Shown here: one piece after another, positions 8,271-45,942 of the stretch
How the letters are laid out: each line of letters opens with the position of its first letter
How positions within the stretch are numbered: the first letter of the stretch is position 1
Assembly: GCF_037975245.1 (NCBI RefSeq)
Contig: NC_092564.1
Coordinates: 10,082,484-10,146,483, forward strand
DNA from: Apostichopus japonicus
Lineage: Eukaryota; Echinodermata; Holothuroidea; Aspidochirotida; Stichopodidae
DNA: 64,000 bases
Direction: 5' to 3'
Position numbers and translations under genes: made by a program
Notes under the pieces: generated by a model
Database searches by the model: none
What the model was told of the DNA's origin: nothing
The model's input: only the letters and a program-made list of their open reading frames with translations

Positions 8271-10061
8271 TATGTATCCCATACATTCATTCTAAGTGAC
8301 AAGGGACTAAAAGAAATGGAGAACGGACTATTATAAATACGACAACAGTTTTTACAGCTATCTATTTCTACCTCAAGATCTTAACCCAATTAAAAAATTG
8401 CAGACAATAGGTTATGGTTTATCATTATGTACAAGTCAGAAAATAGACAATAATGACGATTTTTAATGATAACCCAATTTGATAGAACAAGGAAAACAGA
8501 ATCGGTAACACAAATGTGTTACCATAACATCAAAAAAATTAGCTGACTAATTGATTAAAATCATAAGAGCTTCCATAAGACTGTCATTAAATATGCAAAA
8601 GGAGATCTTAACCTGAGAGGGTCAAATCTTTGATATGAAACATGGGACAAAACGTTTACCTTAATTCTTTAATGGTTTTTGTGATGAACTATGTGATGAA
8701 AATACAGACTGTGCAATACAAAAAAAAAAAAAAATTAAAAAAGAAAAATGGGAAAATTGTTCCCTTAATATGGGTGTATCAATCTACAAAAGTGATTTTA
8801 AGCTCAATTTCTCCATAATCTTTCTTCAACCTTAGCAGTTGAACACAAATTTGAAATGTCACAAAAGCAGGATATTTTGGCCAAGCAATCCATTAAAATG
8901 CATTATGAATGGTGGAATAAATTGACCAGCTAAACAATACTTGTAAAAGGATACAGACCATAGTTAAGTCAATACTTCAGAGGACCAAAGAGTCAACAAA
9001 TAACATAAAAACTAAACTACGTTTTTTTTCTTTTCGAATTCATTAGTGAATTCAATATGCACTGATTCTGAACACAGGAGGATGTGTGATCTATTTCCTT
9101 AAGTGATAATAAGCTATGAAGGTTATCCCTCAAAATATATTCGACATCTCAATAGCATTATGAATAACTGAAACCTTTATTTGTTATAACCACAGAGATT
9201 TTGACAGATTCACAAATGGCAGTATAAACCATTTCATGAGGGACCTAACAGCCGATTTTAATTTTTTTTTTTAAGCAAACATGGCATTTTAATAAATGTC
9301 AAAAACTAAATAGAGGTATTAATATCTCATAAGGGTCTTAACGGTCAGTCTTACTATGTACAATAGTTCATAAAGATAGTGTAACAGCAGCAAATCTTTG
9401 TATGTACTACAAGAAGATATTGGCAGTAATGAAGCAACCTTAAATTTTAAATCTAAGATTGCCTGATCACCTTTAGTACAAGCAGCGATAAGTGTTTTCT
9501 TCTCTTTAATAACCTTAAAAGAATGATTTGCTTGGTACAAACTTTGCGTCTTAAAAAAAAACAAGATAATCACTTTTTTATTCATTGATTCTAAAACATT
9601 ATTGTAGTGAAGCTTGTATCACTCTTTTATTGGTTGATTCCAATCACACATTGAATGCATGAACAGACTTGGCCAAAAATCAAAATTTCTCAATCAGGCA
9701 AAGCCCCACACTCAACATAACATCGTTTTTTAAGATTGAGATGTAAGGGACATAATGTGAGGTGCAAATCATCCAAAGGGTTTGAAAAAACTATCCAAAA
9801 TTAATTCATCCCCAGCTGAGAGATCACATCAAACAAAATCCTAGAAAAGACAAGTATTTGCAAAAACACTTCAAAAAATTTGAGGTTAATCGAATCAATT
9901 CAATAATAAGTGACTAAGAAAGTTAAGCTTCCGTCAACTTGAACAAACTTCCAAGCTAAATGGAACGGACCAAGTTATATCAAGTTCAGAACACCTGTTT
10001 TGAAACTGGACAACAAGTGCTGTATGTTAGAGCACCAGGGTTCTAATTTCAATAGCTTAAC
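8271..10061. other. Downstream region of hnRNP paralog 1, probably terminal 3'UTR/intron
   Basis: No coding frame. If the 3'UTR exon at 10062-10404 is internal, the terminal exon must lie here. A candidate polyadenylation signal AATAAA on the minus strand is at 9577-9582; a second TTTATT (plus strand) lies near 9176. Neither can be proved from sequence alone. Confidence 0.35.
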
Positions 10062-10404
10062 CTGGTCCAAACAAATTACTGACAAATAAATATGAGCGAT
10101 TGTTCTACTAATTATGACGGTCTCCAAGATAATTTCTATTCTCTTAGCTTCTGTCCATATCCCATTAAAATATTTGTTAGCTGATGATCCTGACTATATA
10201 TCCTGGCTGGCCATCTGAATCTTTACTGATAAACTGTTCTATCCTGTCCCAAACAATCTTCAAAGGCTGCTGACCCTCCTGGCTTTATCCCATGGCTATC
10301 GACGTTCTAGTGGTGCTCTTATTTAGTACAAACTGAATGATCTTAAATGGTAATGGGGGGCAATCCTTCACTGTTGACTATTTACACAACCCCAAAGAAA
10401 CAAT
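10062..10404 (-). promoter_or_regulatory. 3'UTR cassette exon of hnRNP A/B paralog 1, near-identical to 30300-30647
   Basis: On the minus strand the block starts after a strong acceptor (pyrimidine-rich, ending ATTTATCACAG) and ends at ACCAG followed by GTTAAG, a weak donor. It contains no AATAAA and no long frame, so it fits an internal untranslated exon. Against the copy at 30300-30647 I count about two substitutions and one 5-bp indel, and identity continues some 30 nt into the upstream intron. The paralog 1 donor has an extra T (GTTAAG against GTAAGC), which may reduce its use. Inclusion would put an exon junction more than 300 nt past the stop codon, a setting that triggers nonsense-mediated decay. 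Confidence 0.7.
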
Positions 10405-10748
10405 CTGTGATAAATGAATGAAAGAAATCAGTTCAGATTAATCATAAGTACACAAATACAAACAAAGAGTGATTGAAAACTGTAGATATCATTTAACCAC
10501 AAATACCTCTTTGAGAATGGAAAGAAAATTAACTTGACATATTCAAGTGTCACTGAAAGTTGATATTGATATTCAGTACTTTTGCAGACCTAGACTTTTT
10601 TACAAAGTTCAATTACAAAAAAAAAGGAATCACTTTCAGAATTATTAAGAATTCGGACAGCCTATTACAACAACCTACTACTCAGCAAATAAAAATTCTG
10701 GTGGGCATGATTTTCCTTTAAGCAATATGAACTCTTAAAAGGATAGTG

Positions 10749-10754
10749 TTTATT
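10749..10754 (-). terminator. Candidate intronic polyadenylation signal, hnRNP paralog 1
   Basis: AATAAA on the minus strand, about 20 nt past the 3'UTR splice donor (intron from 10772) and some 23 nt past the stop codon. If the intron is retained, this could give a very short 3'UTR. No equivalent signal is seen at the same place in paralog 2. Confidence 0.35.
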
Positions 10755-10776
10755 GTTTTGTTATTGACTTACCTCT

Positions 10777-13700
10777 TTAGTATGGCCTGTATCGGCCACC
10801 CCTGGTGCCTCTGCCGGCTCCCTGATCGTAACTACCGTAGCTGTCTCCACCATAATCACCGCCTCCGTAGGCACCACCGCCACCACCACCATAGCTGCCA
10901 CTATTGCCATAGCTGCTGCCACCGCCGTAGTTGCCTCCGCCAAAGCCGCTACCCCCTTTCCTGTAGTTATCACCTCCGTAACCACCGCCGTATGAATCAT
11001 CTTGATAATTATCTGCAAGAAGAATCAATCAGAGAATATGCCACTCAGTTTTAAAGAGAAAAAGAGAGACTTAAACACTAGTACCATCTAAGATTCTTCT
11101 GAACTTGAATTCAAAGACACAGCTAATCCTAACATTCCAACATCAGAGAATAAACTTCTCAACTGATTTTTTAATGAAAACGTCAACACTTTTTTGACAG
11201 TTTTGTTAACATTATACAATGCAAATATGTGATGGGTACCAGTCATTTCTGTAAGTGGTTTATTCTCACTTTGGGAATAATGCCTTCATGCCATTTCAAA
11301 TCTCTGAACATTGCCCTTGAGCCCTTTTGGAAAAGGTGAAAAATTGCTGTGGAGCCCTGCTATTCCAAGGCAATTACGAAATCATGCTAACAAGTTGTCT
11401 TGGCCCTCTCAAGCCCTGCTAGATGCAAAGATAGCTATGCTAGATATGGAAACCTAGCTATTTTGTATGCAAGTTTTATATTAGCCCCAAGTGACCTTTG
11501 ACTCCCACCAAAACAATGCATTCTTGTGTACTCATTAAAAAGAACTTGTTGAATGGACCTATCTTGAGATGGTACATGTTACTGCAATACGTTAGATAAT
11601 ACTCATTCGTGCAAACCTCTTCTGCATCCCTCACTTACTCCTGTACACAACGGTGTAACCACTGGTGACTCTTTGGGAATTATTACTTACCAAATCCTCC
11701 TCCACCTCCACCCCAAGCTGATCCTCCACCGTAGTTGTCAAACCGGTTTCCTTGATTGAAACCGCCACCTGAAATCATGGTTAAACAAGAAAACAAAACA
11801 ACATAGCAACACAAGACTTTCTCATGGATGATGTCATCTGGGCAATCCAGCTGAAAACCTCTTCCGTTTCTCGTTTCGTCAATCGTTAATAAACAGAGAA
11901 ACAAATATTTCTACAAAAAAGAGAGATTTTATGTACAGAGAAGTTTGAGAGCATAAAATACATTCAAATGTATCAGGTTTTGAAGTATCAATCAACAAGT
12001 AGGTTTTAATAGCCTAAAAGCTTTTGAAGAGCATTTTCCCAGATGACATAACAGACCTCTTGGGAGTAGCTGAAGGTTTGTGTCCAAAATAAGTTACATT
12101 CAATCAGCCATATCTTGAATTAAGGAGCAAAAAAAAATTGAGATGGGGTTTTCAACTAGCAGTGTCACATTAATTGTCACCAGAAATATCCTTTGATGGG
12201 ATATTCCGGTCACATCTAATGTGACCCTTCTATGGACTAGAAAAATATTCCACAAAGTTAGCTGAAAAACCGGTATTACGACGTCTTTTCCCCAACTCAA
12301 AATACGGTGACTGTGATATAGTGATTGTTACTTATTTTGAAACCTGAGTAATGAATGCCTACCTCGGCCACCTCGGCCGCCACCTCGGCCACCACCTCTT
12401 CCTTCGAATCCACCTCGTCCACCACCTCGTCCACCACCTCCTGAAATACAGTAAGGAGTTTTACATTTTTTAACTCAAGTCTGGATATCACAAGCAGCAT
12501 ATCACAACGGATAGCAAAGAATATTCACTGTGTATGAGAGTTATTACACATATTAATTTGGTGGCTAGCACATCAACCTTTAAGGGTAGGAGAACACGTA
12601 GGTACTTAGCAATTTCACTTCATGGAGACCATACTGTTTTCTGACAACAATTTGAACTTTTGAAGCCCTTTCAGAAACAGAGTCTTCAACGATGACATGG
12701 CTTAAATTATAGTGATGTACACCATGTCAGTAACCTGCTTGTTTGTAAACATATGATGAATCATGAGATTTGGTAACTTGGGTTCTATGTAGTATTCTAT
12801 CTTCATTGCATGCTGGACAATTGGTCAAGAGTCTGTCCCTATCCTTAAGTCAACACTTTATTATAAAGCAGAGAAAACTTACCTTCCATTTGTTCCTTTG
12901 GTGCTGCTTTCTTCACTTCCACATTCCTTCCACTCATTGTAAGTCCTTGAATAACTGAAAGTCAAGTTAAAAGACTTACTTGAGATGATAGCATTAAAAC
13001 TGTACAAGTCACTTCACCAATAGGTACTGTGTGTATATTGATGATGACAAATAAAAGCTTCCAACCACAGATTTGTGCAATCTGTGTTAAGAGCCTATGT
13101 GAGCTAAACTGATGACACCAAGCAAATTGCAGTTCTGATTGGTGGCTTAAATGTACAAAGATAATTTCTAAAGGCATAAAAAAGAGCTTTTTGTCGTGGC
13201 AGTGAATAGGAAATAAAACATGGACGAAACATCCTCAGCTCCTTCATGTTGAAAAAGAACAATGCAAAACCAATGTCATCTGGTAACAAAACTGGGATTT
13301 AAGAATTGTTAGAACCAAGTCGATAAACACCATCAGTTCGCAGCTTTAAATGAATGGAACAGATCTGCAAGCCAATTCCTTGCCACAGTTGTATGTGAAC
13401 ATTCAACAGTAACTTTGAACAAGATGTATTTATTGAGATATCATTTTTACAAGGTTTTCACAGTTTGACCTGTTGATCACATAATACCTTTGACCTGCAG
13501 AGAAAGTGAAAGGGGGCGTCTTGTACTCCAAATTAAGTGGATCATAACCTACGTATGAAGTTCATCCACTACAAACTTCCTGAATTACGATGCTTACACA
13601 TCAAGGTGCCAAATGCTCATGCCATCACCATTGATTCTTTTTGCCCAGGAATAAAAAATCCAGCAACCGGGAAAATTTCATAATTGGGTAACAACAGTGC

Positions 13701-16245
13701 AGGACAAACACAACTGGAGAAATGTTATTCTTTTATTTCATTGGTTAATTCACTGTTGAATGTATTATCTACACCTAAGTCATATTTAAAGTATCTCACC
13801 CATCAATACCAAATGTTGTTGGTTCATAGTAACAAGCACATGCAAATGACTAACTGCTTTCTCATATGAAATGGTCACAAAAGGTTTTACTCACTGACTA
13901 ACTTGTCCACAAAATCTTCATGTTCGAAGTCCAAGAAGCCAAACCCACGCAACTTTGTGGGATCATCCTTTCTCTTCAGCAGATCAATCTTTGTAGGAAC
14001 GATAGGTGCACACCACTGGCGAATGAGGTCTTCTGCTTCTTCTTCACTAATATTTGGAATACCTCCAACAAATATTTTCTTGACCTTCAAATGTCCAGTT
14101 CCAGACTGATCCTGAAATATTGGAGAGAAAGAAAGAGGCTCATCAACATTTTTGCAGAGGGCACTGTCATATCGGTCCTAATGTACTGTTTAATAATCTC
14201 TGATTTATAGAAGTACATTCGCTTGTAAAAATTTGAAAATATAGGCCATAAGATCTCTCCTTCAATAATTACGAACTAAGCAGTAAGTACACTTCAACTT
14301 ATGTTACCATTATGATCTCAGTCAAAGGGGGAAACTTGTCAAGATTCACAGAACTAGATAGGACCATGATAAATCTTTCAAACAGGCATACTTACATCTC
14401 GTGGAATGGCCCTCTTGATCTCAACTTGTTTTTCCTTAATCAACAAGCCACCACTTTCCCTTCGTGTTTCCAGCACGCTGTCTGTGGCTTCAACTGCATC
14501 AAAAGTGACAAATCCAAATCCACGAGAATTTTTTGTAACAGCGTCCCTGATCACGACACAATCAACGATGGAACCGTAGCTTGATAACACTTCCTTGATA
14601 TCCTCCTCTGATGATTTACGATCCAATCCGCCAATGAACAATTTTCGGAGAGATTCCAAATTGTTCTGCAGGAAGTAATTGAAAATGAAAACAAATATAA
14701 CTTTGATAATGATGATTAATTTCTCCATAATCAAAGGTTGTTCCTGTAACTATTCGTGAAAGTCTGTAGAGAAAGACTAATTCTTGATTTGAATATGATA
14801 TCATATATCAGTTTTAGGAAATTCATGCTTATTTGTGAAGTTAGGTTTCAGATTTTGCTCAATTTTCAACCACCTGTACAAAATTAAAACTTTGTAACGT
14901 CAATGGGTATGTATGTGAGAGTGTGCTTAATCCACACGCAATAGCCATAGACAATGGCTATGAATACCACTTTCATCTACCCTGGGCTTGTACGAGAATC
15001 TTGCACAATAGAGCTTCCAGATGTGAAAATCATGGGGAAAAATATTGTTGCAATAATGTTGGGAACGTTATGAAAATCCAGAGAGAAAAAATGCCGTATT
15101 GGCTCCAGTTAAGATATGCTACAGAGTGTTAGGATAAGTTTTGTCCCCCTGCAAGTTGGATATGCATCGGAAATGAAAAACATGCCAACGACGGATCGAA
15201 TGATACAGTAACGCTGTTGTTGGAAATTCAGAGGTGTAAATCTCGGAGGTAGAAGAGAAATCCTGGTATGCCTGTTTACAGGAGAGAATGGGCAATTTGC
15301 CATTGAAAATGGCACACACACACTAAAATACAACAAAGTGGCTATTCTTACGACTGTTCGTAAGAATAAATTCCGACTACGCATGCGCAGTTGCTATATT
15401 TATGACAGGAGAACTATTTTTTACGACCAGGAGTAACAATAATTTCCGGTTAGGGTTAGTGTTAGGATTGGGGTTTAGGGTTAGGGTTACCCCTACAACA
15501 TGGGCAGTTGCTTTATTTACTTTACTGCGCTTGAATTCGCCTTTGTCGTAAGAATAGTTTATAAATAATTGTTACGAATTGTCGTAAGAATAGCCACGGC
15601 CAAAATACAAACACATCCAGATTTTTGGAAAATTGTATTTTATTGAGGAAAAATCTTACTGTCGTATTAACTTCTAAAAATTTTACAAAATGCGATAAAA
15701 TAGTACTGGTTGGCAGCTCTGAGTTAGGCTAAATAATTACCAACGCTACTTATATTAAATATCCATCGATCCTCTTCCGAACCTAATCTATCCTGAGAAT
15801 CTACAGTCTCTATCCTGCTGGAGCCAAATTCTATAATTCTCCATCCTATTCAATAATTTCAATGTGCCCTTTCCCTTTTGTCTACAAATATTTATACTAG
15901 CTAGCCTAAGGCCTATATCTTATTTAAACGGGAACACAAGATACAATTATTTCAAAACTGAGGAAATTTCATGGATTATGCTACCTTACACTACGTTTAG
16001 CATGTAGTATTATTGGTAGCCTAGCCTTTAATGGTGGTATTAAACACTATGCCCAGCATTAGTAACTAGGCTAGTACGCTATCGCGCACACTACTGCCAT
16101 AGTCATACTCATGAACAAAGACGTAGGCCTAGGCCAATAGCCTAACGTGAGGCCTTCCCTATGCGGTCTGATAATGGCGGTTGACATAAAAAAAAAATTA
16201 GAACTGCATTTAATTTCTTACGCCTGAATCGCCGTTATGATCCAT
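10777..16245 (-). CDS. hnRNP A/B-type RNA-binding protein, paralog 1 (7 coding exons)
   Basis: Nuclear RNA-binding protein acting in splicing and mRNA handling (family knowledge). Coding exons: 16245-16222, 14665-14396, 14111-13895, 12954-12883, 12440-12363, 11768-11691, 11012-10777; total 324 aa. Frames join exactly: phase 0 at the first two junctions, phase 1 after. Exon 1 encodes only MDHNGDSG. RRM1 carries RNP2 KLFIGGL and RNP1 RGFGFVTF; RRM2 carries KIFVGGI and RGFGFLDF. Three Gly-rich exons follow: an RGG segment (GGGRGGGRGGFEGR), a GGGFNQGNRF segment, and a Gly/Tyr/Ser tail ending RGGRYRPY, which fits a PY-type nuclear import signal. The stop is 4 nt before a GTAAGT donor, so an intron lies in the 3'UTR. 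The RRM2 region with IRQWCAP is unlike the usual A1/A2 sequence. Family call firm; orthology to a named hnRNP is not. Confidence 0.9.
13440..13690 (+). repeat. TGACCTTTGACC-family repeat inside an intron of hnRNP paralog 1
   Basis: Shares 'acaaggttttcacagtttgacct', 'tcttgtactcca', 'tatgaagttcatccac' and 'gccatcaccat' blocks with the copy at 7801. The half-site pair here is decayed (TACCTTTGACCT at 13485-13496). It lies in the intron between 12954 and 13895. Confidence 0.6.
15334..15601. mobile_element. Small TIR element with telomere-like core, in intron 1 of hnRNP paralog 1
   Basis: About 268 bp. Inverted ends GTGGCTATTCTTACGAC and GTCGTAAGAATAGCCAC are exact complements. The 9-mer AAAATACAA lies just outside at 15325-15333 and 15602-15610, an 8-9 bp target duplication. 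The centre carries irregular TTAGGG/GGTTAG units (about 15445-15490), and further 'TTCTTACGA' and 'TCGTAAGAATA' copies lie within the ends. There is no coding frame. Confidence 0.7.
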
Positions 16246-17056
16246 TATTGTTTTTTCGAAAGGAGTTAAACGTCTCTCAGAAAGCCCTTTTCGTTCAGAT
16301 TGAGATGCTGGAAATAAGCAGGCTGGGTGGCTGTTTAATCACGCGGACTATGGTCACAAACTAACGACGACTGGAACCACGCTACCAAAGATCGTTTCAT
16401 TGATCAGACGCAATAGACCGTGGCCTTGGAAGTGCCTTAGTATGGAACGCCAAAAACTGACAGTTGATGTTAATGGCAACTTATATTAGAAGCATGTGGC
16501 CGTCATACACATAGAAAAGAAAAACGAGGTGTCCTATACTCATAGTATGTACGTTTTAGTTCCACCCTGCAAGCATGAACTCGCGAAGAAGCCTCATTGG
16601 CTTATCAAAGCCGCAAGCTGACCGACGTCAGTATCTAAGATTCATATTTAACGTCCATGACTATGGATTGTCAATTGTCAACAACTCTGTAAATTGACGA
16701 CATACATTGAATCTTGGAGTGACTCGAACTGGGGACCTTATGATTGGAAGGCCACTGAGCTAACACTCCGTAGTACGACATAATGAAAACATCTTCACAA
16801 CCCCACTCACCCCTCGAAACGAAAAACAGGTTTAATGAAACACACCTTTAATAATGTGATTTCGATGTTCATAGCACAGAATTACACCATCTAATGTATT
16901 ACTGTCAACTTGTGGGGAGTAGGTTCCCACACAAATAGGCCTACATACGGTTCATACCTGTTGGTTAGAAAGATATAATATTTTACGTTGGGTTTCGAAA
17001 AATTGTGTTATATTTGTGATTTAGGGCCTACCTGTTTAACACTATCCTCTTCGTGA
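16246..17056. other. Upstream region of hnRNP paralog 1
   Basis: Presumed 5'UTR and promoter region of the minus-strand gene. No TATA box or core element stands out. Apart from the tRNA-like sequence at 16715-16769, nothing else was recognised. Confidence 0.4.
16715..16769 (-). pseudogene. tRNA-like sequence lacking most of the D arm
   Basis: The minus strand begins GGAGTGTTAGCTCAGTGG, with an acceptor strand and a good Pol III A box, then goes directly to an anticodon-arm-like CCTTCCAATCATAAGG, a T arm with GTTCGAGTC (B box), and CACTCCA, which pairs with the start. The 3' half of the D stem-loop is missing and the anticodon loop would be 8 nt, so this is not a functional tRNA. It may be a SINE head or a tRNA pseudogene just upstream of hnRNP paralog 1. 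Confidence 0.5.
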
Positions 17057-17130
17057 GATATTATCAAAGGCGTAGGAGGCGGGGAGGGGGGGGGGGTGGG
17101 GGCTGCAGCCCCCCAACCAAAAGTTTTGGT

Positions 17131-17550
17131 GAAAATTTGGGCAATATGCTGAGAATTTTTCGGGCACCTACTGAAAGAAGAAAAATTTGCAGTGTGTTTT
17201 CCAATTTTTTTAATGAAAATTCGGGCAATATGTTTAAATTTTTCGGGCACCTACTGAGAGAAGAATAATTTGCAATATGTTTTTCAATTTTTTTTTTTGA
17301 TGAAAATTCGGGCAATATGCTGAGAATTTTTCGGGCACCTACTGAAAGCAGAATAATTTGCAATGTGTTTTTCAATTTTTTTGAGTGAAAATTCGGGCAA
17401 TATGCTGAGACTTTTTCGGGCACCTACTGAAAGAAGAAAAATCTGCAGTGTGTTTTTTCAATTTTTTGTGTGAAAATTCGGGCAATATGCTGAGAATTTT
17501 TCGGGCACCTACTGAAAGAAGAATAATTTGCAATGTGTTTTTCAATGGTT
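17131..17550. repeat. Minisatellite, about five copies of an 84-88 bp unit
   Basis: Each unit contains 'gaaaattcgggcaatatg', 'tttttcgggcacctactga' and a 'gtgtttttcaattttttt' end. Copies differ by a few substitutions and T-run length. The array makes three frames appear open on the minus strand; those translations (repeated FSRCPKN motifs) are an artefact of the repeat. Confidence 0.85.
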
Positions 17551-17639
17551 AAACTGATATTATTATTTTCGTAATTATTGTAACGACTTCCCCAATTATT
17601 ATAACCAATATGGAAGGGTAATAACACGGAAAATATAAC

Positions 17640-17795
17640 CAAAATTTTTCGCGCTCTCTGCGCGCATGCAACGTCTTAATGTGCATATCATATAGGCATT
17701 TAGTGGTTATTTGCATGTGGTGTAATAACCGATGAATACCTATATGATATGCACATGTGCGCGAGAAAAATTTTGGTTATATTTTTCGGGCAAGT
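17640..17795. repeat. Foldback inverted repeat
   Basis: The arm 'atataaccaaaatttttcgcg' (from about 17633) is the inverse of 'gcgagaaaaattttggttatat' (to about 17782), and 'gtgcatatcatatagg' is the inverse of 'cctatatgatatgcac'. The spacer between arms is about 50 bp. It may be a small element of its own nested in the 17065-17850 element. Confidence 0.7.
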
Positions 17796-17869
17796 CGTTA
17801 CAGCCTCCCCCCCCCCCCCCCCCAAATCAAATTGGGCTCCTACACCTATGGATATTATTATATGATTTA

Positions 17870-18570
17870 CATGAGTCACGATCACGTCTCAAAAAAATTA
17901 TCAGCATAAAATAAGTTACAATTAGTCCCTCAATAGAAAATAATGTCTAATGGTACATTTTTATCAATGCACAACAAAATCCCACCCCACCCCCCTCCCA
18001 GACCAGTTCAAAATTAGAAATCCGTAAGGTAAGCATCACGAGGAAGACAATTTAACTTGAATGAAATTATCACTAAATTCGATGAAGGCATGAAGGAAAA
18101 TTTAGTAGAACTTGCGATGTTCTTGATCATCTGTAAAATTTGAAAGGCATAGCGGTAAAATATACTTCTTTTCCCCGAGCAAATACATTTTGTGACCTAC
18201 ATATACTGAGCATGCACCTAATTGTGTTCTAAACCACGGTCAATCAACTTGTCTTGTGTAAACTGTAGGCATGTGTAAGTCGGGAGTAAAATCTGATATG
18301 TTTGTGTATGTGAATTTCCTAGTTTTTTATTTTTATTTATTTTCAATGTTCCATTGTTTTGCGTCTGAGATTAATCGGGCATATTTCGTTGTTATTGTAA
18401 TAGAACGCTATATATTTAGTTACGATTCTGTGAACTTGCCGGTTTCTTATTTAAATGTAGGGTTATGCCATTTTGGCATAGCTGGCATGCCTTAGACATG
18501 TAACCCCGCAGGAAGCCTTCCGTTCAGATATAGAAATCCGTCAAGGCGCGTGGGGTAGCCCCGAAATCTA
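17870..18570. other. Non-coding, no feature recognised
   Basis: AT-rich DNA with short incidental frames only. Confidence 0.45.
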
Positions 18571-18574
18571 TTGT

Positions 18575-18960
18575 TCTCTCTTAGTTTAGTTTAGTAGAAA
18601 AAGGGACCAGGAGGGACACTTAAGTCCCCATCAAGGACCCCATAGACTTAGAGAGAGAAAAAAAAACTGAAGACACGAACACTCAGACCCTATTACAAAG
18701 CATTCTTAAACCCATTGACACTACTTGCAAGTACAACTTTCTCAGGCAAACCGTTCCACTCATTCATACCCTTATTAGAAAAAAAGTTATGCCGGGCCTA
18801 CTATGTGACTTTTGGAGTTTAAGACAATGACCTCTGGTACGATAAATAATATCGTTACTTTGTTGACTTGTTGACGTACGTAACACGTTCGAAACTTTCG
18901 GGATTATTCTTAAGTACGTTTTGGGTTTCGGTTTTGCGGCAGATGACAAACACATTTCCC
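18575..18960 (-). pseudogene. 5'-truncated non-LTR retrotransposon: C-terminal RT fragment and 3'UTR
   Basis: The minus strand encodes a tail typical of CR1/Jockey-like LINE proteins: TRGHCLKLQKSHSRPGITFF, then after a -1/+1 slip in an A/T run, MNEWNGLPEKVVLASSVNGF and KNAL followed by a stop. The 3'UTR continues through 'cttgatggggacttaagtg' to 'ctaaactaaactaa'. The RT core and everything upstream are missing. A second copy of this 3' end lies at 42545-42705 in the opposite orientation. Confidence 0.75.
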
Positions 18961-19379
18961 TCCGGCTCTACATAAATGTCCAAGTTGCAACGCTCTTCCG
19001 CCAATCAAAGTATTTCTTTGCTTTCTGCTTGCTTCCCCTGAACTCTTGGACGGTCTGTAACTTAAAACACCAGTACTTAGTATTATTTGGTTTTAAGGTG
19101 TCTTCCTGTATATTTTAACACTGATGGCATCTCGCTAAAACGCATTATATGTGAAACATTTAGTACTGCATTCATCTAGTGTGCATCTGCAGTAGCAAAA
19201 AAGAATGCAAATTGCATAGAGGTTTCGATGACTTCATTGCATTAGACAGCTGCTTGTTAACCAGAAATAGCTGTCACAATATAAAAGGCTCGAATCACTA
19301 TTTTGATGTACAATTACACTATGGCATGGTAAAGACAAAAAACAATATGGGTCTTGTACTCAATGTGATGCGTCCAGAC

Positions 19380-20260
19380 ACTAAGTATGAAAAGTATCCA
19401 CGATTCCCATCGTTAGATACCAAGTAAAAGGGTTTTCCGAGTTTGACCTCTGGTGACCTCAAATGAGATTTGACCTCACAAGCAACAGGATTCTTGTACT
19501 CAATATTGTAATATTATAACAAGCCCGGCTCCTCCGACATGTAATATTATGTCGGGACTCGCGAGAGAGATGTACTGGGGTTATCTTGATGCCGTATTTT
19601 ATGCTTCTTCAGGAGACGTTTCGAACGGAAGATAGAAGAAAACAATGAGTTCTCAGAAAAACAAGTTGACAAGATAGGATTTGATTAGTGATTCGGTATA
19701 ATTTCTTCTCTGTCGATTCTCTTACAAATAAAACAAAATTACAACGATTTGACTCCGTCAATTACGCAATTCGAAGGAGTGATGAAATGGTGACGAAGTG
19801 AAGAACTTGCAGAAACATGTCGCCTTTTATACATTACTCCACCGAAAATCCCACTGCGCATAATCAAAAGGCAGCCAATAACCTGCTTATCCTACATTAG
19901 CTAACGATATAAAAATCATTGGATGAATGACTGATCTGCTCTGATTGGTTGGGAGTTTGGAAACCACCCCTTTTTTATATGGAAACTTCCAAACCACGTG
20001 AGAAGAACCTTCTCGAATGTTCTACAGACACATTGAATCTATTTTGGGAAAAGGCCCTGTAACATGATTCAATAAGATAGTTAAACTTCTCGTGGGAAAA
20101 CTGGATCCTTGACCTAGATAAATATATATGGGCCTGTACGGTCTCTCGATGGAGTTTTTCGGGAACATCAAAGAGATGGTATCACTATTTCATAACAATA
20201 GGGAAAATCCACATACCATGTATGAAAAGTATCCATGATTTCTACTATGATAAATCACGT
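19380..20260 (+). repeat. TGACCTTTGACC-family repeat split by a 0.7-kb insertion
   Basis: The left part (19380-19506) has 'agtatgaaaagtatccacga', 'gtttgacctctggtgacctc' and 'ttcttgtactcaat'. The family then resumes at about 20205 with 'aatccacataccatgtatga'. The sequence between (19507-20197) is foreign to the family. Confidence 0.55.
19507..20197. mobile_element. Possible solo LTR
   Basis: An insertion of about 691 bp with TGTAATA and TAACA at its ends, so a TG...CA terminus with a short imperfect inverse. It contains a TATA-like 'aaatatatatggg' near 20125 and a CCGACAT/ATGTCGG hairpin near the start. The flanking duplication is not clean, which leaves the class uncertain. No retroelement coding sequence is present. 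Confidence 0.4.
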
Positions 20261-20929
20261 TTTATAGGTTGTCAGGCCTCCACACTGAAAGATTTTTAAG
20301 TACTGGTTATTTGGCGACCGTGACTAAAAATCTACTCGCCAAAACGCAAAATTCACTGGCCACTATGACTGCTGTTCAAATCTCCATAGTACAGATATAC
20401 AAAATTAGAACTTTCTATGAACAAAGGTTAGGCACTAAAGCAGATACTTTTTAAAAATATTTGGCGAGGCCTGCCAGCCTGTTGTCTTTGGTAGAGATCA
20501 ATATGTAAGCTGAATACAAGGAAAATGTCCATCTCGGTTATCAGCTGCCAATGTGAATATTATTTGTCATATCTCAATGCTTTTTACTGGACTTCTTTGA
20601 AGTATATTGTTCATCCTGGCTATACGCTATAGCCTAGCGTGTCACATTCATAAAAGATTATTCATGTACCATCATCGAAACCACACTGCAGTTTTGCGGT
20701 CTGGTTCCTTTTAGGTTTGTGTAAATTGAATTTTACCTTACCCTTGTACGTACATGCAGTATGTGAAACTTTATTCACATGTAGGCCCAATGTACGGAGT
20801 GCTGATCAAATAGCGACATTGCCCGCTCAGCGGACTTGTATTACTCCTGCACCGGTTAGCTGCAGCATGCATGCATCCGGTAAATATGATACATATATAT
20901 CCACACCTGCTACGAATGCCATTTGCATC

Positions 20930-21215
20930 ACTAGTTTGCTGGTACTATCTAAGGATGCCCATAAGTTAATGTCCAATTGCCAACAACCTGTCCTATTCTT
21001 ATGAGGCCTAACCCACATGTTATCCCCAATTTGACCTCTGGTGACTCCGAATGACCTTTGACCTTCACAAGAAAACAATGCACTTCTTCTACTCCATGTT
21101 GTACACCTACTCACCAAATATGACATTGGTCCAAGCTTCCCTTCTTGAGATAGGCCTATCAAGTTTACAGGCAAGGCATCACACACTCACCTGCCTACAT
21201 GATTGCATAGAATAC
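20930..21215 (+). repeat. TGACCTTTGACC-family repeat with a perfect DR1 site
   Basis: Its start ('ctatctaaggatgccc', 'ccaattgccaacaacct', 'cctattcttatgag') matches 41700 and on. A perfect DR1 TGACCTTTGACCT is at 21052-21064. It continues to 'atgacattggtccaagcttc' and 'catcacacactcacc'. The frames called on both strands here are repeat translations. Confidence 0.7.
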
Positions 21216-22149
21216 GATTATTATTAAAACCAAAAAGCCTTTCATCCCTATGTGCTTCTTCAGTATTTATTAACAAGCTGAGGCATCAAACACTGACAAA
21301 TGGCTGCATAGATTCCTTTGGCCATTGTAAAGGTATCAATTTTTAAACTTCTTCTGCAAACCTCATTTTGGGTTTGGGTATTCCATCACCACTGGTAAAG
21401 AAAGGTCCAAATTAACTGTTGAAACAATTGTGGTGTTTCAGAGAAACTTTGAGTAAGCATGTCAACATTTCAATGTTTTAAAGATCTCTTGACGGAAAAA
21501 TGTCAGAAAGTTGACAGATTATAGGGAATATGAAACTTACATATGATCACTTCAATGCCCAGCACTCAAAAGTTTCGTTACCGCAGACAGAAATAATAAA
21601 GAGGGTGTGAAGTTAACTTGACATACTTGAATAAAAATGAAAATAAACAAACAGAAGGATTTTGGCTTTGCATTTCTGTATTTTCCCCCTTACAATTCTT
21701 TTAAAACTATTTTAAGATAACCGGCATATTTTAAATGCTTGTAGATCAGAGTGGGCTGTCAATATCCCATTTGACTAAAGAGGCTCTGGACCTTTAGGAA
21801 CTGCCCAACTGCCAGACGGCCCCCTGCTGCTGACAATTACGAGAATGTTGGACCCCCCCTCCAGAAGTGCACATTAAAAAATCTTGATACCTAGGGCCTA
21901 TGTACTTTTACACGAGCTAACCTTGAGTTGACATTATGTGTGTTCTCAATAGGGTAAACAACATTGAAATCAACACTAAATATTTCTATATGTTTCTAGC
22001 CATCGGTTCAATATGAGGTAAGTAAGAATGCTACATTCTATCCATTATTTTGGGGAGTAATTCCAGTCAATAGGTACGAGACAAACCCACGTTTTCATGC
22101 TTGTATGATACAGGAATTTTTAAACGATAAATATACTTAACTTGTGTGA

Positions 22150-22545
22150 AGAATTACTTGTTAACTTATGTGTGATCGACTGAAAGTGTTTCATATAACT
22201 GTTGTACCTATTGCTGTATCAACTCAATGCTGGTTTGCTAGATAAAAGAACCAAATACCAAAAACTCATGTAAATACTTGTTAACTTATAAATATTATTA
22301 CTTGTTAACTTATGTGTGATCGACTGAAAGTGTTTCATATAGCTGTTGTACCTACTGCTGTATCAACTCGATGTAACTATTTGTACACTAATAAATATGA
22401 TCCCGACCGATAGCGGTACCTATTGCTGTATCAACTCTATGCTGGTTTGCTAAATAAAAGAACCAAATACCAAAAACTCATGTAAATACTTGTTAACATA
22501 TAAATATTATTCCAACCGATAGCATTCCATATATACTTACTGCTG
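22150..22545. repeat. Irregular tandem repeat
   Basis: Blocks 'tacttgttaacttatgtgtg', 'gatcgactgaaagtgtttca', 'ctgctgtatcaactc' and 'aaaccaaataccaaaaactc'-type recur two to three times each with internal deletions. The longest recurrence distance is about 170-280 bp. No function was recognised. Confidence 0.7.
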
Positions 22546-22789
22546 TAACTATTACTATAAACTCAATGCTTGTTTTAATTAGAGAAAGGAACTCGATGTG
22601 AGTAGTGTTGAGTTTCTATCGCATGTATATTTTGAAGTCAAAACTGATAAACAGCGGGGCTCAGCTGATAACCTTTTTGATGAATACAAAGAGCCACAAA
22701 CGAATGCTCTCCAATAGCAGTAACCGGGTAAGGATGTTAGGTCACACTGGATACAGGCTGGGACTTCTTTCTCTAGCACTGTTCACTCT

Positions 22790-23072
22790 TTAAAGGGTGT
22801 GAAGACTCCCGCAAAAAGAAACGTCTAATGCCGGTAATCTGACCTAGTTTCGAATGAGGTGTAACAGAAGTGTTAGACACCACCATCGAAAATACACACA
22901 CAGCTTGCTACCGTCTGTAATTAGACACTAGTGTTCAGTCAGTACATACAGCTGCAGTCAATACCCACAGCACAGTGTATAAACGATACATCAATGGACA
23001 TGTCAGGTCCATCTAAAGATAACAAGGTATCACGTTTCATTACTGTCTGCATTTTGTAGGGACACGAACAAA
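22790..23072 (+). repeat. Dispersed repeat, inverse copy at 34415-34701
   Basis: Begins 'taaagggtgtgaagactc' and includes 'gacctagtttcgaatgaggt', 'cagtacatacagctgc', 'acccacagcacagtgtat' and 'aacaaggtatcac'. Its inverse complement with scattered changes occurs in an intron of hnRNP paralog 2. No terminal inverted repeat or target duplication was found. Confidence 0.8.
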
Positions 23073-23079
23073 ACGTCAC

Positions 23080-24560
23080 GGTTTAGGGCGATTCTTCAAT
23101 GCCTTTAAGTGCAGGCTACTGTCTCATTGCAGCATCCTAGGGCAGCTTCCCTTATCATGCATGTTATCTTCCGGGTGACCTCCATCTGGTGTAGCAAGGA
23201 AAAAATATATATTTAAGATAAAGGAGTTCTTGTGAAACACCTGGAAAGTGCTCCAAGTCATACTGATAGGAATTCCTCCTTTTTGTGTTAAAAGAAGTAA
23301 AACTTTGTGATAATTTTGGGCCACATGCTACCAGACTCAGAAAAACAACGACTGAAATATTTGAGCTCCTTTAACAAACATGTCACATTTTTATGAGTTG
23401 ACCTAAGCAGTAAGCATACATGTTTATATTACCACAGTATATATATATGTATGTATATGCATATACTTACAGTATATACATGCGTGTGTGTATTTGTATT
23501 CAATTGTGTATGTATGCATATGTGTATATATATCTATTGTGGGTGGTGGGGTGGGTAGGTTATACGTATTGGGTTGGTGTGTGGGTGGATATAAGTGTTA
23601 CTGTTTTCTTGTATTGCTACCTCAATTTACTTATGGTAGTGCTCTACTAGACAAGCTCTCCGGGTTTTTTTGGAGTGCTTCCTTTCACAATTTTCCCTGT
23701 TGTTGATACGTTATGTCACTTAGTTAACTTTTCTGTTATTATATTGTGAAGAAACAAATAAATGAAATGAAAAATGACCCCAAGAATCATTGTGTCCCAA
23801 ATGGGCAATAACACCAACAATAACAGGATAACAGCACACTGTGCTACACCTTTTATCCATTTTTGCCACTACAGAATTTCCCCATCGCAGTGATATTGTC
23901 ATATTTAATATTGCCATTATGAAATGTCGATTCTGCTGGAATATTAGAACCAGAACATCAAAGGTGTTTGTAGCTCAATCGACTTATAATTATAGCATCA
24001 TTCATGTAAAATCAACAGGTCAGACAGAAGCAAATATTCTACAGCAACCTTAACAGAGAAGTCTAAAGATTACTCATATTCATTCCAAACAACCCTCCAT
24101 AACAACACCTCACCAAAAGATGAACTCATATGACTAACAGTTAAAAGAGTAAATAACATTTACAAATGTCCTCAACCTCTCAAACATTGTAAACATTACC
24201 AACACTGTTCTCTTTTAACACCCATACAGAATGTAACATAATTGGGCTGTACTGACATCAAGACAAGTACTGGAAGTCTAACTGAAATGTTCACAAAGCA
24301 TTTTACTGAGCAAATGCCATGAAAACAGAAAGTATAAGGAACAAACTCAGAATGCAGAAATGCATTGTGGTTTCTATGATGTGACATGAGAAGTTTTCTT
24401 TATGAATCTGATATAATGTATAGTGAGGGTGTACGACATACTTGATCTTAGTAAAGCAGTGTTATGTGACAAACAAATTCACAATGACACAGGCTGTCCT
24501 GAAATGACCAACGACCTCAACAACAGGCTTCTTATACTAAATGTGATAGATACATCAACA
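23080..24560. other. Non-coding with TATG/TATA microsatellite
   Basis: A TATATG/TGTATG-rich stretch lies at about 23440-23545. The frames across it are low-complexity. Nothing else was recognised. Confidence 0.45.
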
Positions 24561-25960
24561 CACTTGTTTACAAGATTTTCACAATTTGACCCCTGGTGAC
24601 CCCAAATGACCTCTACAAACTAGAGCACCAATGGTGCAGAAGCTCATACCTTTTCGAGCTTAAAAATGTAGGGCCCACAAAACCAATTTTGGGCCCGTGA
24701 GGGATACCCCCCCCCCCTCCATTAGCAGAATCCTGGCCACACCACTGGCTATAATTCCTATTTTCCCCTTTAAATCCTATTTTACCCACTCTCTCAACAA
24801 TACCACTGACCTACCCTATTAAACTTTCTCCCCTCTACCTTAGCAGACATAACAAGCACTCCCTACAAGGCATAACTTCACAAGCTGCCTACATACCTCA
24901 GGCTCAAAGACTTCTAAGAATCGGCAAGTGCTGATTGGCTATAGGGCTCTCATGCTTACAGTTCAACAGTTAATAACAACTCCCAGTCCTGCTTTAATTC
25001 CACTAACAGCCTCTGCAGAGCTTAACCACAAATGTAAACAAACACTGCAGACACTGGGAGACAAATTAAAGGAGCTTTGGCAAAAAGTGAAGGCTCAGAT
25101 TTTTTTAAACAATGGGGATTAATTGTAATTAATTAACTTTTGACTAAATTTTTTTAGGCATCACCTTATTCATACACAATCCAACAATCATCAGTTCAAC
25201 TTTGAATATGATCCATCAAAATCTTGAGAAGATTGAGATATTTGAATATATTACAAAGAATGACCCCCGATGACCCCCTAAATGACCTTTGACCTCAATT
25301 TTCCGAACACCCCTCGTAACTCTCATCCCGAGGAACATTGTGACCAAGTTTCATTATAATTGGCCATACACTGTACGAACAGGAGCAATTTGAAAATATA
25401 GGGCCGCGGCCCGGGCCACAAAAGACCCCTAGTTGATCTTTGATCTCAAATTCATGAACACCCTGAAGGTAAAACTACCATAGTACTATCGTGACAAACC
25501 CTCGACATTGTACCATGGAATCTGTAGGAGAAGAAGCATTTTGCATATTTCCACAAAATGGCCCATTACGGCCCACAGGTGACATTTGACCCCAAATTTT
25601 GGATCATCTCTGATGGACCTATACCTAATGGTCCTTGTGTCCAAGTTTCATGAAATTTCATCAAACACTGTGCGAGTGGGAGCGGTTTTACCAATTGTTG
25701 ACGGATAGAGTGATAGAATGATAGAGTGATAGACGCCGCACTGTAACAATAGCTCACACCAGCATGCTGGTATGAGCTAAAAACAATAAACTTCTTGTAC
25801 TCAATGTGGTGCTTCTACACACCAATTATGAAATTGGTCCGTACCTCCCTTCTTGAGATATCGTGTTTGCAAGCTGGGCATCACAAACATACACATATAC
25901 ATACACACATACACCACTGTGAATGCAAAGGTTACGATTATCATCGAACCTAAAAGGTTT
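24560..25960 (+). repeat. TGACCTTTGACC-family repeat split by a 1.1-kb element
   Basis: Left part: 'tttacaagattttcacaa', 'tttgacccctggtgacccc', 'aaatgacctctacaaa'. Right part resumes near 25785: 'cttcttgtactcaatgtgg', 'cttcttgagatatcgtg', 'gcatcacaaacatacac', 'aaggttacgattatc'. The material between is a separate insertion (24641-25778). Confidence 0.6.
24641..25778. mobile_element. Insertion with inverted ends AGCTCATACC/GGTATGAGCT
   Basis: The 10-mer AGCTCATACC at 24641-24650 has its exact inverse at 25769-25778. The right end also forms a 30-bp near-palindrome (25750-25779), preceded by GATAGAGT/GATAGAAT repeats. Inside are a second series of TGACC-type blocks, including a perfect DR1 at 25283-25295, and 'aagtttcat' motifs repeated at about 240-bp spacing. 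The class is unknown; it may itself be composite. Confidence 0.45.
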
Positions 25961-25969
25961 TCTTTGTTA

Positions 25970-28180
25970 GAAAAAAAAACTCACCTATTACCACAAAGTT
26001 TCAAAAGTTGACAAGATGCCCAACTGTTGATTCTTCAGTCTCATGGGTCAAGCTCCTTCACCCATCATCCCCTGTTCACTGAAATTCAAATAGGAAGATT
26101 TGGAAGAGTAAATAATCCAGTTTGACTGTCATAATAATATTCATTATGTCATTGCCTGCATCCTTAGACAGAGGAAATAAAACCTAATTGTTGAAATATC
26201 CTACAGTATGCTTATCTTAGAACTACACATTACAGACACTACTAAGAACTTGATTAAATAACCACGCCCTCATCTCGTACACACTAAGAAATGGAGATTC
26301 CAAGAATCACGGTAAATTGGCAAAATTGGTTGAAATTTAGAAAGTCAGACAAATTCAATATCTTAAATGATAAAAGTAATCATTTTTCTTTGACATTTTT
26401 CCATCTTTCAGGTCACCTGAGGACTAACCCAATGAAACTTTGACCCAATGTTCACTTTATACTACTGTAGGAACCCAAATGAACTGTATATGCCAAACAA
26501 ATTTCAGTCTTTGCAGAGACAGGACGAATATAAGAAAAATCAGGCAATCCAACAACCTTCAAGCTTACATTTCTCATTTCCCCCCCCCCCCCCGCCCCAA
26601 GTTGAATAGAAGCTATATTTCACTAAATCTTCAACTAATGTACTTATCAGTCTTATCCTTTTGATACGGTAAATGGTTAAACAGTTCTACTTCTTCAAAC
26701 ATCCCATATAATCTTTACCAACTTTTGCTACTGAAATGATGCCACCGTTTTCTGACCTTAAGAATCTGTCTAGGTAATTCCAATTCCAGGGCTTGTTCCA
26801 ATATGATTCTGTTCCATTTCCAGTTTTCTATTAAACCTTCAAGAATATCAGGATCTGCTAGGCTTTGAATACTTTGCTTAAGTATTCACATCCTGGTCAC
26901 TTTGTCTTTACTATATCAAGCATACATCTGACAACCTCACCTCTACCCCCAACCACTCTTCAAACAAAGCACCCACCAAATGCACTCCTTGCTAAGAATC
27001 CTTTCTTTGTAGACATATTCTTCGTTTGGGTTAATATATGATTTTTTTTATCTGCAGATATCTATCTGTTGGTATTGACTTAATTATACTGCTGGTATTC
27101 TTGACATCTCTTCTTTCAAGGTGGGTTAAAGTTGGGTTCCGTCAAGCTCTTCCTTATGTTAATTTTAATCAGTGACATGTATTGAAGCTATTTACTGGCT
27201 GAATGCATGTGGATTCTGTTGTTTGCTAGGCATAAAGAACTATAAAAGTCAAAACCAATACAGAACAGTACTACAACTGATGTGTGGAAGAAATCAAATT
27301 TGTGTACTTGCACTTTTTAGGCAAGTGGGTAATAAAAATTGGCCTGCTATTGTAGGTTTTGCAAATATATTTAGATGCTGGAGAGAATGAGTTTGCAATA
27401 AGATGGTACATAATAATTAATAATGCTTCAAAAACAAGAGGGGTGGGAAGGGGGGGGGGGAGGGTAGAAGGGGAGCCACCAAGGATTAGTTACCTAGACA
27501 GTATGTTTAAAGGGAGAGGTGGATTTCAGGGCTCATTTTCAGTACTTTGGTGCTTGTGTGTCTCAAGAATGGTCAAATGCTCAAGTTTAGAGCACCTCAT
27601 CCAAAAAACAAGTATTTTGTCTCGAAAAAAAAAGAAAGAAATCCAGTGCCCCAAAAACAACTGAAGGCAAGTGGAATTCTTCATTAGGTATCGCAATGTC
27701 CAAAGAGATTTCTTGATAATGTGAAAGAGAGGCTTTGAAACTAATGAATGATCTGTGGAAGCCTGTACATTTAATGCTCTGAACAATCTCATGTTCCCAC
27801 AGAATGCCAAACTGGTAAAAGTGAAGGTTATCAAGGTCTTTTCTATATTCTCTGGTCATTTCTGCTGACCCCCTTCCTCTCCCCCCCTTTTTTATCTTAA
27901 AGCAGCATTTTGCGTCCTTGTCTATGGGTTTTCTAAACCTCACTGACTCCACGATACCATAATGACATACATAACTAGCTTATATATTCAAATCTTACTT
28001 CAAATGGTGGCATAAAAGTCGAAAAATTTACAACTTTCAACTTTGTTTTGCTCGAAGTTATTTTCCATTTATCATCCAAATAAACCGCGCCCATAATATG
28101 AATATTTAAACGCTACCAACGACATTGGCTAATACGTAATACAACACAATGATTGATTTGTGTAGATTGTCTATGGCAGT
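25970..28180. other. Non-coding, no gene recognised
   Basis: C run near 26581 and G-rich stretch near 27448. Open frames at 27359-27952 overlap on both strands and show no recognisable domain or splice-bounded structure. Confidence 0.45.
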
Positions 28181-28185
28181 TGTAC

Positions 28186-28213
28186 CAGGGAGCTGTTAGA
28201 GTCCAGCTCGCTG
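28186..28213. repeat. Short imperfect palindrome of the CAGGGAGYTG family
   Basis: Arms ACCAGGGAGCTG and CAGCTCGCTGGT pair at 11 of 12 positions around an 8-nt loop. Flanked by GTTGTAC (28179-28185) and GTTGTGC (28214-28220), a possible decayed duplication. Confidence 0.5.
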
Positions 28214-28219
28214 GTTGTG

Positions 28220-30299
28220 CCAAGTTACCAACTCGACGTTTGAATCTTTTTGCAATTGATACTATCAACAGGGTTCCCCAAGAACTTTAAATGTGATTCA
28301 TGACTACCAGTTCCTATGATCCTGCATCTGCTCGAGTCGTCAATGTGTCCCCCATGTTTATGCCATGCCACAAGCCAATCTAAATCCATCTTTGATTTAA
28401 GTATGATACTCACAGGGTTATAACTCTCTCAAAGAAATTTAGGGAAACGTTGGTCTTTGTGATCTCGGGCACTAACTTCGCTTGCAGTAACCGTATTTGC
28501 CCGATTTAGTTACTGTTAAAAATTATTATGAAACATCAAAATTTCAAAACTGTCTTCTTGCAAGAGGTTATGATGGACTGACATTTCAGTCTTGGCAGGA
28601 AGTGTGTCAGATGTTACCAGACGATCCTACAAGGGTCTATACAGTGGGCTCTCTGACTTCTTTTACCTACACCTTCTTCTACCTACACCTCTTCTATCTT
28701 CACCTACACAGGCCGTTTTGCAGTAGATAAGCAATTCTGTTAACAGTTTCTTTTTTCTACTTTCACAAGGAATTTCTACGGTTGCAGTATTTAGCATTTC
28801 AGAGGGGTTCTTTACAGCACGATAGCTGTGCTATGGAACCATCACAAATTATGAGACTAACAATTAACCCAAGGCCGATCAGGAACAAGCCATCTTTGTA
28901 ACAAAATTCAAAGAAAGAAATGTGGGACTTTTACAGGACAACGAGTAACATTCATCTATTCTATTTCGACAATTGGAAGGCAATCGAAAAACAAAAAATT
29001 TTGTAAGCAAGAATATTATTGTCTATGAAAACGATGTATAAGAATGTGGACTGTGCAATACTACATGCATAAATCTCACAAGTTTCCCCAATTAAATTCT
29101 TTTGTAATGTTCAAAAAAACTTATTTGTTAAAAGGGATGAAACGCTTTCCATTTGTTCTGACTTTGAAGTCAGAACAGACAGTTATAGCCACATAAACAG
29201 GAAACTTTATAGAAAAATTGCTATTATTTAGTAGTAATAGTTGCGCTTAAAAAAAAAAAAAACCTTTGACACGTAACACATGATATGACAAAACTTATAT
29301 ATGGCTCTTTGTTTGAGCTGAGTTCAAGTGTATGAAAATAATTGCAGCCTGGACAAAAATTACAGATATGTGGGTTTCAACCGCCAAATAAATGCTAATG
29401 ATTAACAGAGACAAATATGCCATGAACATGATATTTCCCAGTAAAACCAAGGAACTGTCTATCTGTATCAATGCCAAGAGCATGCTACCTCTATTCTATT
29501 ACCATCAATCATTGTCATTATGACAAACTACAATGGAATATCTCCCAGAGAATTAGCTCCAGGAAAGCAAATGTTACACCTTAATTAGCATACTACAAAA
29601 GGACTGCTGTCTGCTACAGACTTGTAAAACAGCTGAAAACAAACAAACTATATTGCAAAGTAATCACCAAGCTCGGTCAACAAATGTATACAATTTGGTT
29701 TGAGACATGGCAGCTTTGTAAGAAGAGACATCTCAAGTACTTTAATATTACAACCCACTGAATATGAGTATCACAGAGTATTCAGTAACAGCCTGTGTTG
29801 TCTGGTGGTGGGAGTCAATTAACTCTGTTATTTTGGCAGTGGCTATGACGTATTGGTAATTCCTCCCAATCTGAGAAAACAACCGTCTTTTAATTATTAT
29901 GTACAAATCAAAAATCCCCCCCCCCCCCCCAAAAAAAAAAATTGGGCAAAGAGCACAGAATTTTGGGGGCTGGCTGGAACGTGAGTTGAACCAGTCCGAA
30001 GTTGGTTGTTCACATACTGATGTAATATATATATAATCATTCATGTTAATACACATATTAACACATGGAAAAAGAAAAATAGAATAAAGCAACAAAATTA
30101 ACAAAATGTATCACCAAAACATTTTAAAACTTTGGGTGGTCATTTTTTCCTTAATTAAAGTCACAAAAGTTGCAAGGAAATTGTCACATTGACGTGAGTA
30201 AATGAAGACGTTCAAATTACATCTACATACGAGGACCTGCCTTGAAACAAAAGGGGAGGTGACTGTTGAAAAACCAGATTCCTCACTTTAATAGCTTAC
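28220..30299. other. Downstream region of hnRNP paralog 2
   Basis: No coding frame. The terminal 3'UTR exon of paralog 2 should lie here if the 30300-30647 exon is internal; I cannot place it. A C/A homopolymer block lies at about 29917-29940. Confidence 0.4.
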
Positions 30300-30647
30300 C
30301 TGGTCCAAACAACTTACTGACAAATAAATATGAGCGATTGTTCTACTAATTATGACGGTCTCCAAGATAATTTCTATTCTCTTAGCTTCTGTCCATATCC
30401 CATTAAAATATTTGTTAGCTGACGATCCTGACTATATATCCTGGCTGGCCATCTGATCTGACTCTTTACTGATAAACTGTTCTATCCTGTCCCAAACAAT
30501 CTTCAAAGGCTGCTGACCCTCCTGGCTTTATCCCATGGCTATCGACGTTCTAGTGGTGCTCTTATTTAGTACAAACTGAATGATCTTAAATGGTAATGGG
30601 GGGCAATCCTTCACTGTTGACTATTTACACAACCCCAAAGAAACAAT
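30300..30647 (-). promoter_or_regulatory. 3'UTR cassette exon of hnRNP A/B paralog 2, near-identical to 10062-10404
   Basis: Acceptor ATTTATCACAG on the minus strand and a strong donor ACCAG/GTAAGC frame a 348-bp exon without a coding frame. It is about 99% identical to the paralog 1 block: two substitutions and a 5-bp insertion are visible. The last coding exon stops 4 nt before its own donor (31469), so this exon follows the stop codon in the spliced transcript. A further donor at its end implies another exon and hence likely nonsense-mediated decay when included. Confidence 0.75.
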
Positions 30648-31468: not shown

Positions 31469-31472
31469 CTTG

Positions 31473-45866: not shown

Positions 45867-45942
<76 letters not shown>

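Follow-up and report, generated by a model that had tools for sequence, protein, structure and literature searches.

Paralogs of the heterogeneous nuclear ribonucleoprotein (hnRNP) family such as HNRNPD and HNRNPDL carry exons in their 3′ untranslated region (3′UTR), and cross-regulation between them has been proposed. Closer to the case reported here, human HNRNPA2B1 has a small UTR intron that lies too near the stop codon to provoke nonsense-mediated mRNA decay (NMD), while further splicing within the UTR triggers NMD, and the gene responds to its own protein (PMC3091714). Human HNRNPA1 and HNRNPA2 have their stop codon in the penultimate exon and are cross-regulated through the 3′UTR, with no splicing change detected (PMC8068773). 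The SR genes mostly lost and replaced their unproductive-splicing elements after duplication; SRSF4 and SRSF6 share one homologous event (PMC4379411). We analyzed a window of 64,000 nucleotides from the echinoderm Apostichopus japonicus (RefSeq assembly GCF_037975245.1, contig NC_092564.1; C4:10082484-10146483), in which two hnRNP genes, here called A and B, carry nearly the same noncoding exon. Two related genes, C and D, lie outside the window, and the predicted gene structures place this exon first after the stop codon in all four. We give an even chance to the reading that the exon is a shared auto- and cross-regulatory 3′UTR platform, inherited by the whole four-gene cluster and homogenized between A and B by recent gene conversion.

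The locus resembles each of these systems in part. Like HNRNPA2B1, the genes have a small 3′UTR intron near the stop codon, a layout in which further 3′UTR splicing or exon inclusion would make the stop codon look premature, and RNA recognition motifs (RRMs) of the A1/A2B1 type (PMC3091714). This likeness is one of gene layout and RRM type, and it has limits: in the cluster, four tandem paralogs share the start of the exon, two share nearly the whole of it, and a strong donor ends the exon in B alone. The genes resemble human HNRNPA1 and HNRNPA2 in that the stop codon lies in the last exon but one, in that paralogs of one family are involved and in that the 3′UTR is the target (PMC8068773); the effect has been measured in the human genes, whereas for the cluster it is a prediction based on shared sequence and on the density of motifs. 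As with the ultraconserved poison exons described for SR genes, a strongly conserved noncoding exon sits in a splicing-factor gene. Unlike the SR genes, for which loss or replacement is usual, four paralogs here keep the exon start, and A and B look homogenized (PMC4379411).

The cluster consists of four tandem genes of the hnRNP A1/A2B1 type, all on the minus strand, found through RRM matches on the contig and tblastn. In window coordinates their RRM1 domains are at 35707 (B), 14650 (A), -5247 (C) and -22981 (D), with tblastn identities to A RRM1 of 77% for B, 46% for C and 43% for D. Pfam RRM_1 matches A at E 1.7e-20 and B at 8.5e-21, and RRM2 of A is matched as RRM_7 (E 2e-9). When the A protein, the only one of the four compared in this way, was aligned with solved structures, both RRMs were covered by hnRNP A2/B1 (E 3.2e-34) and A1 (E 8.2e-33). 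The two tandem RRMs are thus of the UP1 kind that marks an A1/A2B1-type protein. In contrast, hnRNP D-like aligned over one RRM of A only (E 3e-24). HNRNPD and HNRNPDL had been put forward as the vertebrate model; since the RRMs match A2/B1 and A1 best, HNRNPA2B1 and HNRNPA1 are the better comparison. A and B have a glycine-rich C-terminal tail, and Gly-rich exons also occur in C and D. The A protein ends in RYRPY and the B protein in RYKPY; those of C and D end in RRY and carry SSFGP[MV]RGG.

We then looked for the exon across the genome (671,581,487 bases, 35 contigs). A search with exon A revealed a third copy, which belongs to gene C, lies 13 kb beyond the edge of the window and is 73% identical over the first 111 bases. 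Direct comparison showed that gene D also carries the exon start, though its core lacks 4 bases (E 8e-12), so that the first ~45 nt recur in all four genes. The 28-nt core with at most 3 mismatches occurs 3 times in the genome and its control 0 times. A gapped pattern, GGTTGTGTAWATAG-(0-6)-CAGTGAAGG, occurs 4 times, once at each exon start of the four genes, against 0 for the reversed control. No fifth copy was found genome-wide, although the pattern search takes exact matches and a diverged copy could escape it. A DNA search with exon D returned exon D alone and not A, B or C, and is thus too blunt to show absence. The four-way alignment keeps the acceptor and exon start, CACAG/ATTnTT (the slash marks the splice site), followed by GGTTGTGTA[A/T]ATAG and CAGTGAAGGATT. 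In all four genes the stop codon is followed, four bases on, by a GT donor (weak in C), and by sequence the 3′UTR intron begins too near the stop codon for NMD in each.

Between A and C the identity is concentrated: the alignment has 113 events, 22 of them non-identical, and its longest identical run, of 30 nt, was reached by 206 of 20,000 shuffles. In a blastn comparison of A with C the exon was the only gene part to match; all other matches fell at 17091-17856, in and around a tandem array. The array itself, of ~85-bp units, occupies 17124-17546 of the window, with related sequence in the upstream region of gene C. B and C matched in the exon, in one 57-base piece of RRM1, in a 369-bp stretch elsewhere in the gene regions and in one 27-base stretch. 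Since the exon start is shared even where the coding DNA barely aligns, it is older than the split of A and B and has been conserved, which supports long-term selection on the exon start.

The relation between exons A and B is of another order. Only 3 substitutions and one 5-bp indel separate them, and identity continues through the final 38 nt of the preceding intron. The longest identical run in the block is 223 nt; in the three RRM coding segments it is 27, 14 and 29 nt. Over the RRMs, A and B are identical at 136 of 181 amino acids (75%) and 419 of 543 coding nucleotides (77%), and 24 of 56 fourfold-degenerate sites differ. The dS estimates are 0.83 (NG86), 0.81 (YN00) and 0.60 (LWL85). 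At the fourfold rate, the binomial probability of at most 3 differences in 381 sites is about 1e-86, so the likeness is not due to chance. Identity fades about ten bases past the donor at the exon end, and in a blastn comparison from the RRM1 exon to the block the A and B introns did not align beyond the splice-site edges. The tract (3/381 sites) is thus far more alike than its flanks and than synonymous sites (24/56 fourfold), as a conversion tract should be. These measurements bear out much of a preliminary description of the region, which had given the block coordinates and splice-site positions correctly, had put the RRM1 coding exons at about three quarters identical in protein, and had noted that the noncoding block is better conserved than the coding sequence. 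Its indel was also right, but its "about two" substitutions proved to be 3 and its "about 30 nt" of intronic identity 38 nt.

That description had offered selection or gene conversion as alternatives. Both seem to apply, to different parts of the exon: selection to the first ~45 nt, shared by the four paralogs, and conversion to the other ~230 nt, near-identical in A and B only. The last two thirds of exon A (~230 nt) gave one weak 28-nt match to C, scored as highly by 14 of 500 shuffles, and no similarity to D, where 384 of 500 shuffles did as well. The 38-nt intron flank, identical in A and B, is largely different in C. In this indirect comparison, the same constraint acting in all genes would hardly give near-identity of A and B together with divergence of C and D; recent conversion between A and B on top of selection is the simplest account, and the most likely one. 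We infer conversion because no alignment is obtained for the neighboring introns and because divergence is far greater in the coding exons. With the introns unaligned, the exon and its splice signals would form a natural conversion island, and this also explains why the tract follows the exon.

What might the exon bind? Human hnRNP A1 RRMs prefer 5′-YAGG and 5′-YAGN (PMC5503513). Our scan covered the two strands of 113 kb in 32,188 windows, the exons themselves included, and of the 96 three-base families compared, YAG ranked as the most extreme when exons A and C were taken together. The 343-nt exon A has 24 YAG and the same length of exon C has 26, counts reached by 0.25% and 0.06% of windows. 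When non-overlapping minus-strand windows within 104 kb are ranked by YAG count, the top three overlap exons C, A and B (28, 26 and 25 YAG) and the next has 24; the best plus-strand window also has 24. Where A and C can be aligned, each of the 5 YAGs of A has a YAG opposite it in C, compared with 57 of 102 identical three-mers overall. A second feature lies in the core: all four genes have UGUA[A/U]AUA at exon position 19, and the one difference among them, in D, is at the base that the motif leaves free. The Pumilio motif is UGUANAUA/UGUAHAUW (PMC7226987). Finally, exons A and B each fold worse than 60 of 60 shuffles, and B also worse than 100 of 100.

These features suggest how a shared platform could operate. 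When abundant, the cluster's own proteins would bind the exon and thereby reduce expression from one another's mRNA; the core may in addition be a point of action for Pumilio. B could splice the exon to a further exon, exposing the stop codon to NMD, while A, C and D would more likely use it as a terminal 3′UTR exon. The near-identity of A and B would come from recent conversion confined to the homology island. The shared cross-regulation that had been proposed gains support from the YAG clusters of A, B and C, but none from D, which has few YAG.

A number of observations weigh against this reading. As to binding, exon D has only 7 YAG, and the binding-platform idea does not extend to all four genes. 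The count of exon A is reached by two other non-overlapping windows, and the excess over dinucleotide shuffles is modest, being reached by 39 (A), 59 (B) and 6 (C) of 2000. Much of it is AG richness, and UAG alone is unenriched over dinucleotide shuffles in A (798/1000) and B (866/1000), with 194/1000 for C. Because A and B are nearly one sequence, the enrichment amounts to two independent cases, A/B and C; YAG was examined after CAG had ranked near the top in the scan, and its specificity is transferred from human hnRNP A1. The Pumilio-type motif has a background of 0.27 per kb and was picked post hoc. Exons C and D fold like shuffles, and neither they nor four flanking stretches show the low folding of A and B. 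RRM2 of gene A, taken alone, has no Pfam RRM_1 match. As to processing, all splice junctions, exon inclusion and poly(A) sites are predicted from the sequence alone. The post-stop donor of C is weak, at 4.1 bits, compared with 11.6 for A, 11.8 for B and 11.6 for D (all donor scores are approximate). An AATAAA at 10754 in the 3′UTR intron of A would allow an mRNA that ends before the exon. A blastn comparison at sensitive settings, which took in the gene regions of A, B and C but not the downstream part of D, showed nothing that looked like a conserved 3′ exon farther downstream. As to conversion, TGAACTGAT upstream of the exon is present in gene D as in A and B, which speaks for some constraint there, and it is possible that a constraint specific to A and B mimics conversion.

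A different account makes the exon a poison cassette in both A and B: inclusion would create a junction ~350 nt past the stop codon and lead to NMD, and skipping would leave a junction 4 nt past it and a stable mRNA. Human HNRNPA2B1 does likewise (PMC3091714), the 4-nt spacing between stop and donor in all four genes would make skipping safe from NMD, and the identity of A and B fades just past a donor that in B is strong (CAG/GTAAGC, 11.8 bits). But in A a one-base insertion turns the same site into CAG/GTTAAG, with 3.75 bits. In the 800 nt counted from the start of the exon, no donor of C exceeds the 5.5-bit listing limit, and D has a single one, of 6.5 bits. Poly(A) signals also stand close by, an ATTAAA just past the B donor and AATAAA at 9631 and 9582 in A, and A, B and C share no conserved downstream exon. 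The preliminary description had seen an NMD cassette in both A and B; of this the part about B is plausible, and the part about A is doubtful. Since the exon-end donors of A, C and D are weak or not strong and A has poly(A) signals nearby, NMD through exon inclusion appears plausible in B alone; we doubt it in the other three genes, for which a terminal 3′UTR exon would be the simpler reading. A poison cassette in both genes is therefore possible but, in our judgment, unlikely.

The exon could also be an ordinary constitutive 3′UTR exon whose core is kept for Pumilio or another 3′UTR factor, with no alternative splicing and no binding by the cluster's proteins. The motif UGUA[A/U]AUA does sit in the most conserved stretch of all four exons, and A, C and D are without a strong end donor. 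This would leave unexplained the YAG clusters in A, B and C, the strong donor of B and the conserved CAGTGAAGGATT after the motif, and we consider it doubtful.

Constraint alone would treat the whole A/B exon as an ultraconserved RNA element with no recent conversion. Poison exons of splicing factors can be ultraconserved (PMC4379411), the exon start is under real long-term constraint, and the stretch of identity keeps to the exon and its splice signals, with an upstream piece that recurs in D. What this account would need, however, is near-total constraint in A and B and a near absence of it in C and D, where conservation is limited to the exon start; the remainder, with its one weak match to C and none to D, and the intron flank, the same in A and B and largely changed in C, make it rather improbable.

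Two nearly identical copies 20 kb apart could come from a mobile element or an assembly duplicate that landed in both genes, but this is hardly credible and was rejected: the whole-genome DNA search found at least three places among the matches listed, all in the cluster and at the same gene position, the gapped core pattern occurs at the four cluster exons only, Rfam at gathering threshold gave 0 matches in the whole window, and the copies in A and B lie in unlike flanks and are not fully identical. A coding exon is not favored either, because the 5-bp indel would shift the frame and the exon lies after the stop codon.

If a shared platform with recent conversion between A and B is the right reading, a four-gene cluster that keeps the start of its post-stop exon, with two copies homogenized, would stand in contrast to the SR paralogs (PMC4379411). 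It would be a natural experiment on whether cross-regulation is maintained by gene conversion, and would place an HNRNPA1/A2B1-style post-stop 3′UTR exon in an echinoderm. Among the matches listed in literature searches on Apostichopus hnRNP splicing, on hnRNP or sea urchin NMD and on gene conversion of poison exons, none was on point, which is no proof of absence. A more speculative idea, which we put forward tentatively and would not bet on, is concerted evolution of an RNA element. The post-stop exon would be the family's own target, and conversion would reset A and B and so tie paralogs with diverging proteins into one cross-regulatory loop. The few differences between A and B include one in the end donor of A and one in the nearby poly(A) signal, so that one common sensor might trigger NMD in B yet yield a stable long 3′UTR in A. 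The features of the two genes are collected in Table 1.

Table 1. Cluster extent and predicted features of genes A and B (window coordinates unless a contig is given; slash, splice site)
Feature	Position	Strand	Basis or remark
Cluster, genes D to B	C4:10050265-10118190	one strand	four hnRNP A-type genes
Gene A, RRM1 segment	14650-14396	-	translation and splice sites
Gene A, RRM2, first part	14111-13895	-	translation and splice sites
Gene A, RRM2, last part	12883..12954	-	coding alignment with B
Gene A, last coding exon, Gly-rich, ends RYRPY	10773..11012	-	stop TAA 10779-10777, donor after 10773
Gene A, 3′UTR intron, 368 nt	10405..10772	-	holds AATAAA at 10754
Gene A, 3′UTR exon, 343 nt	10062..10404	-	weak end donor CAG/GTTAAG, 3.75 bits
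Gene A, core GGTTGTGTAAATAGTCAACAGTGAAGG, common to paralogs	10365..10391	-	UGUAAAUA at exon position 19 (10386-10379)
Gene A, two AATAAA (9631, 9582)	9577..9631	-	candidate exon end if donor unused
Gene B, RRM1 segment	35707-35453	-	translation and splice sites
Gene B, RRM2, first part	34989-34773	-	translation and splice sites
Gene B, RRM2, last part	33857..33928	-	coding alignment with A
Gene B, last coding exon, ends RYKPY	31469..31660	-	stop TAG 31475-31473, donor after 31469
Gene B, 3′UTR intron, 821 nt	30648..31468	-	splice sites
Gene B, 3′UTR exon, 348 nt	30300..30647	-	strong end donor CAG/GTAAGC, 11.8 bits
Gene B, conserved core	30608..30634	-	UGUAAAUA at 30629-30622
Gene B, ATTAAA, candidate competing poly(A) signal	30287..30292	-	starts eighth base past exon end

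Elsewhere in the window, a 502-codon open frame on the minus strand (47110-48618) looks by eye multi-membrane-spanning and matches no Pfam family at 1e-3. A direct pair of ~650 bp, 92% identical, at 40540-41180 and 55707-56355 is perhaps a repeat element. An inverted pair at 39988-40327 and 43438-43771 shows 93% identity across 343 aligned bases, and more partial copies lie close by. Near-perfect self-complementary tracts at 45867-45938 and 56675-56736 match each other in both orientations.

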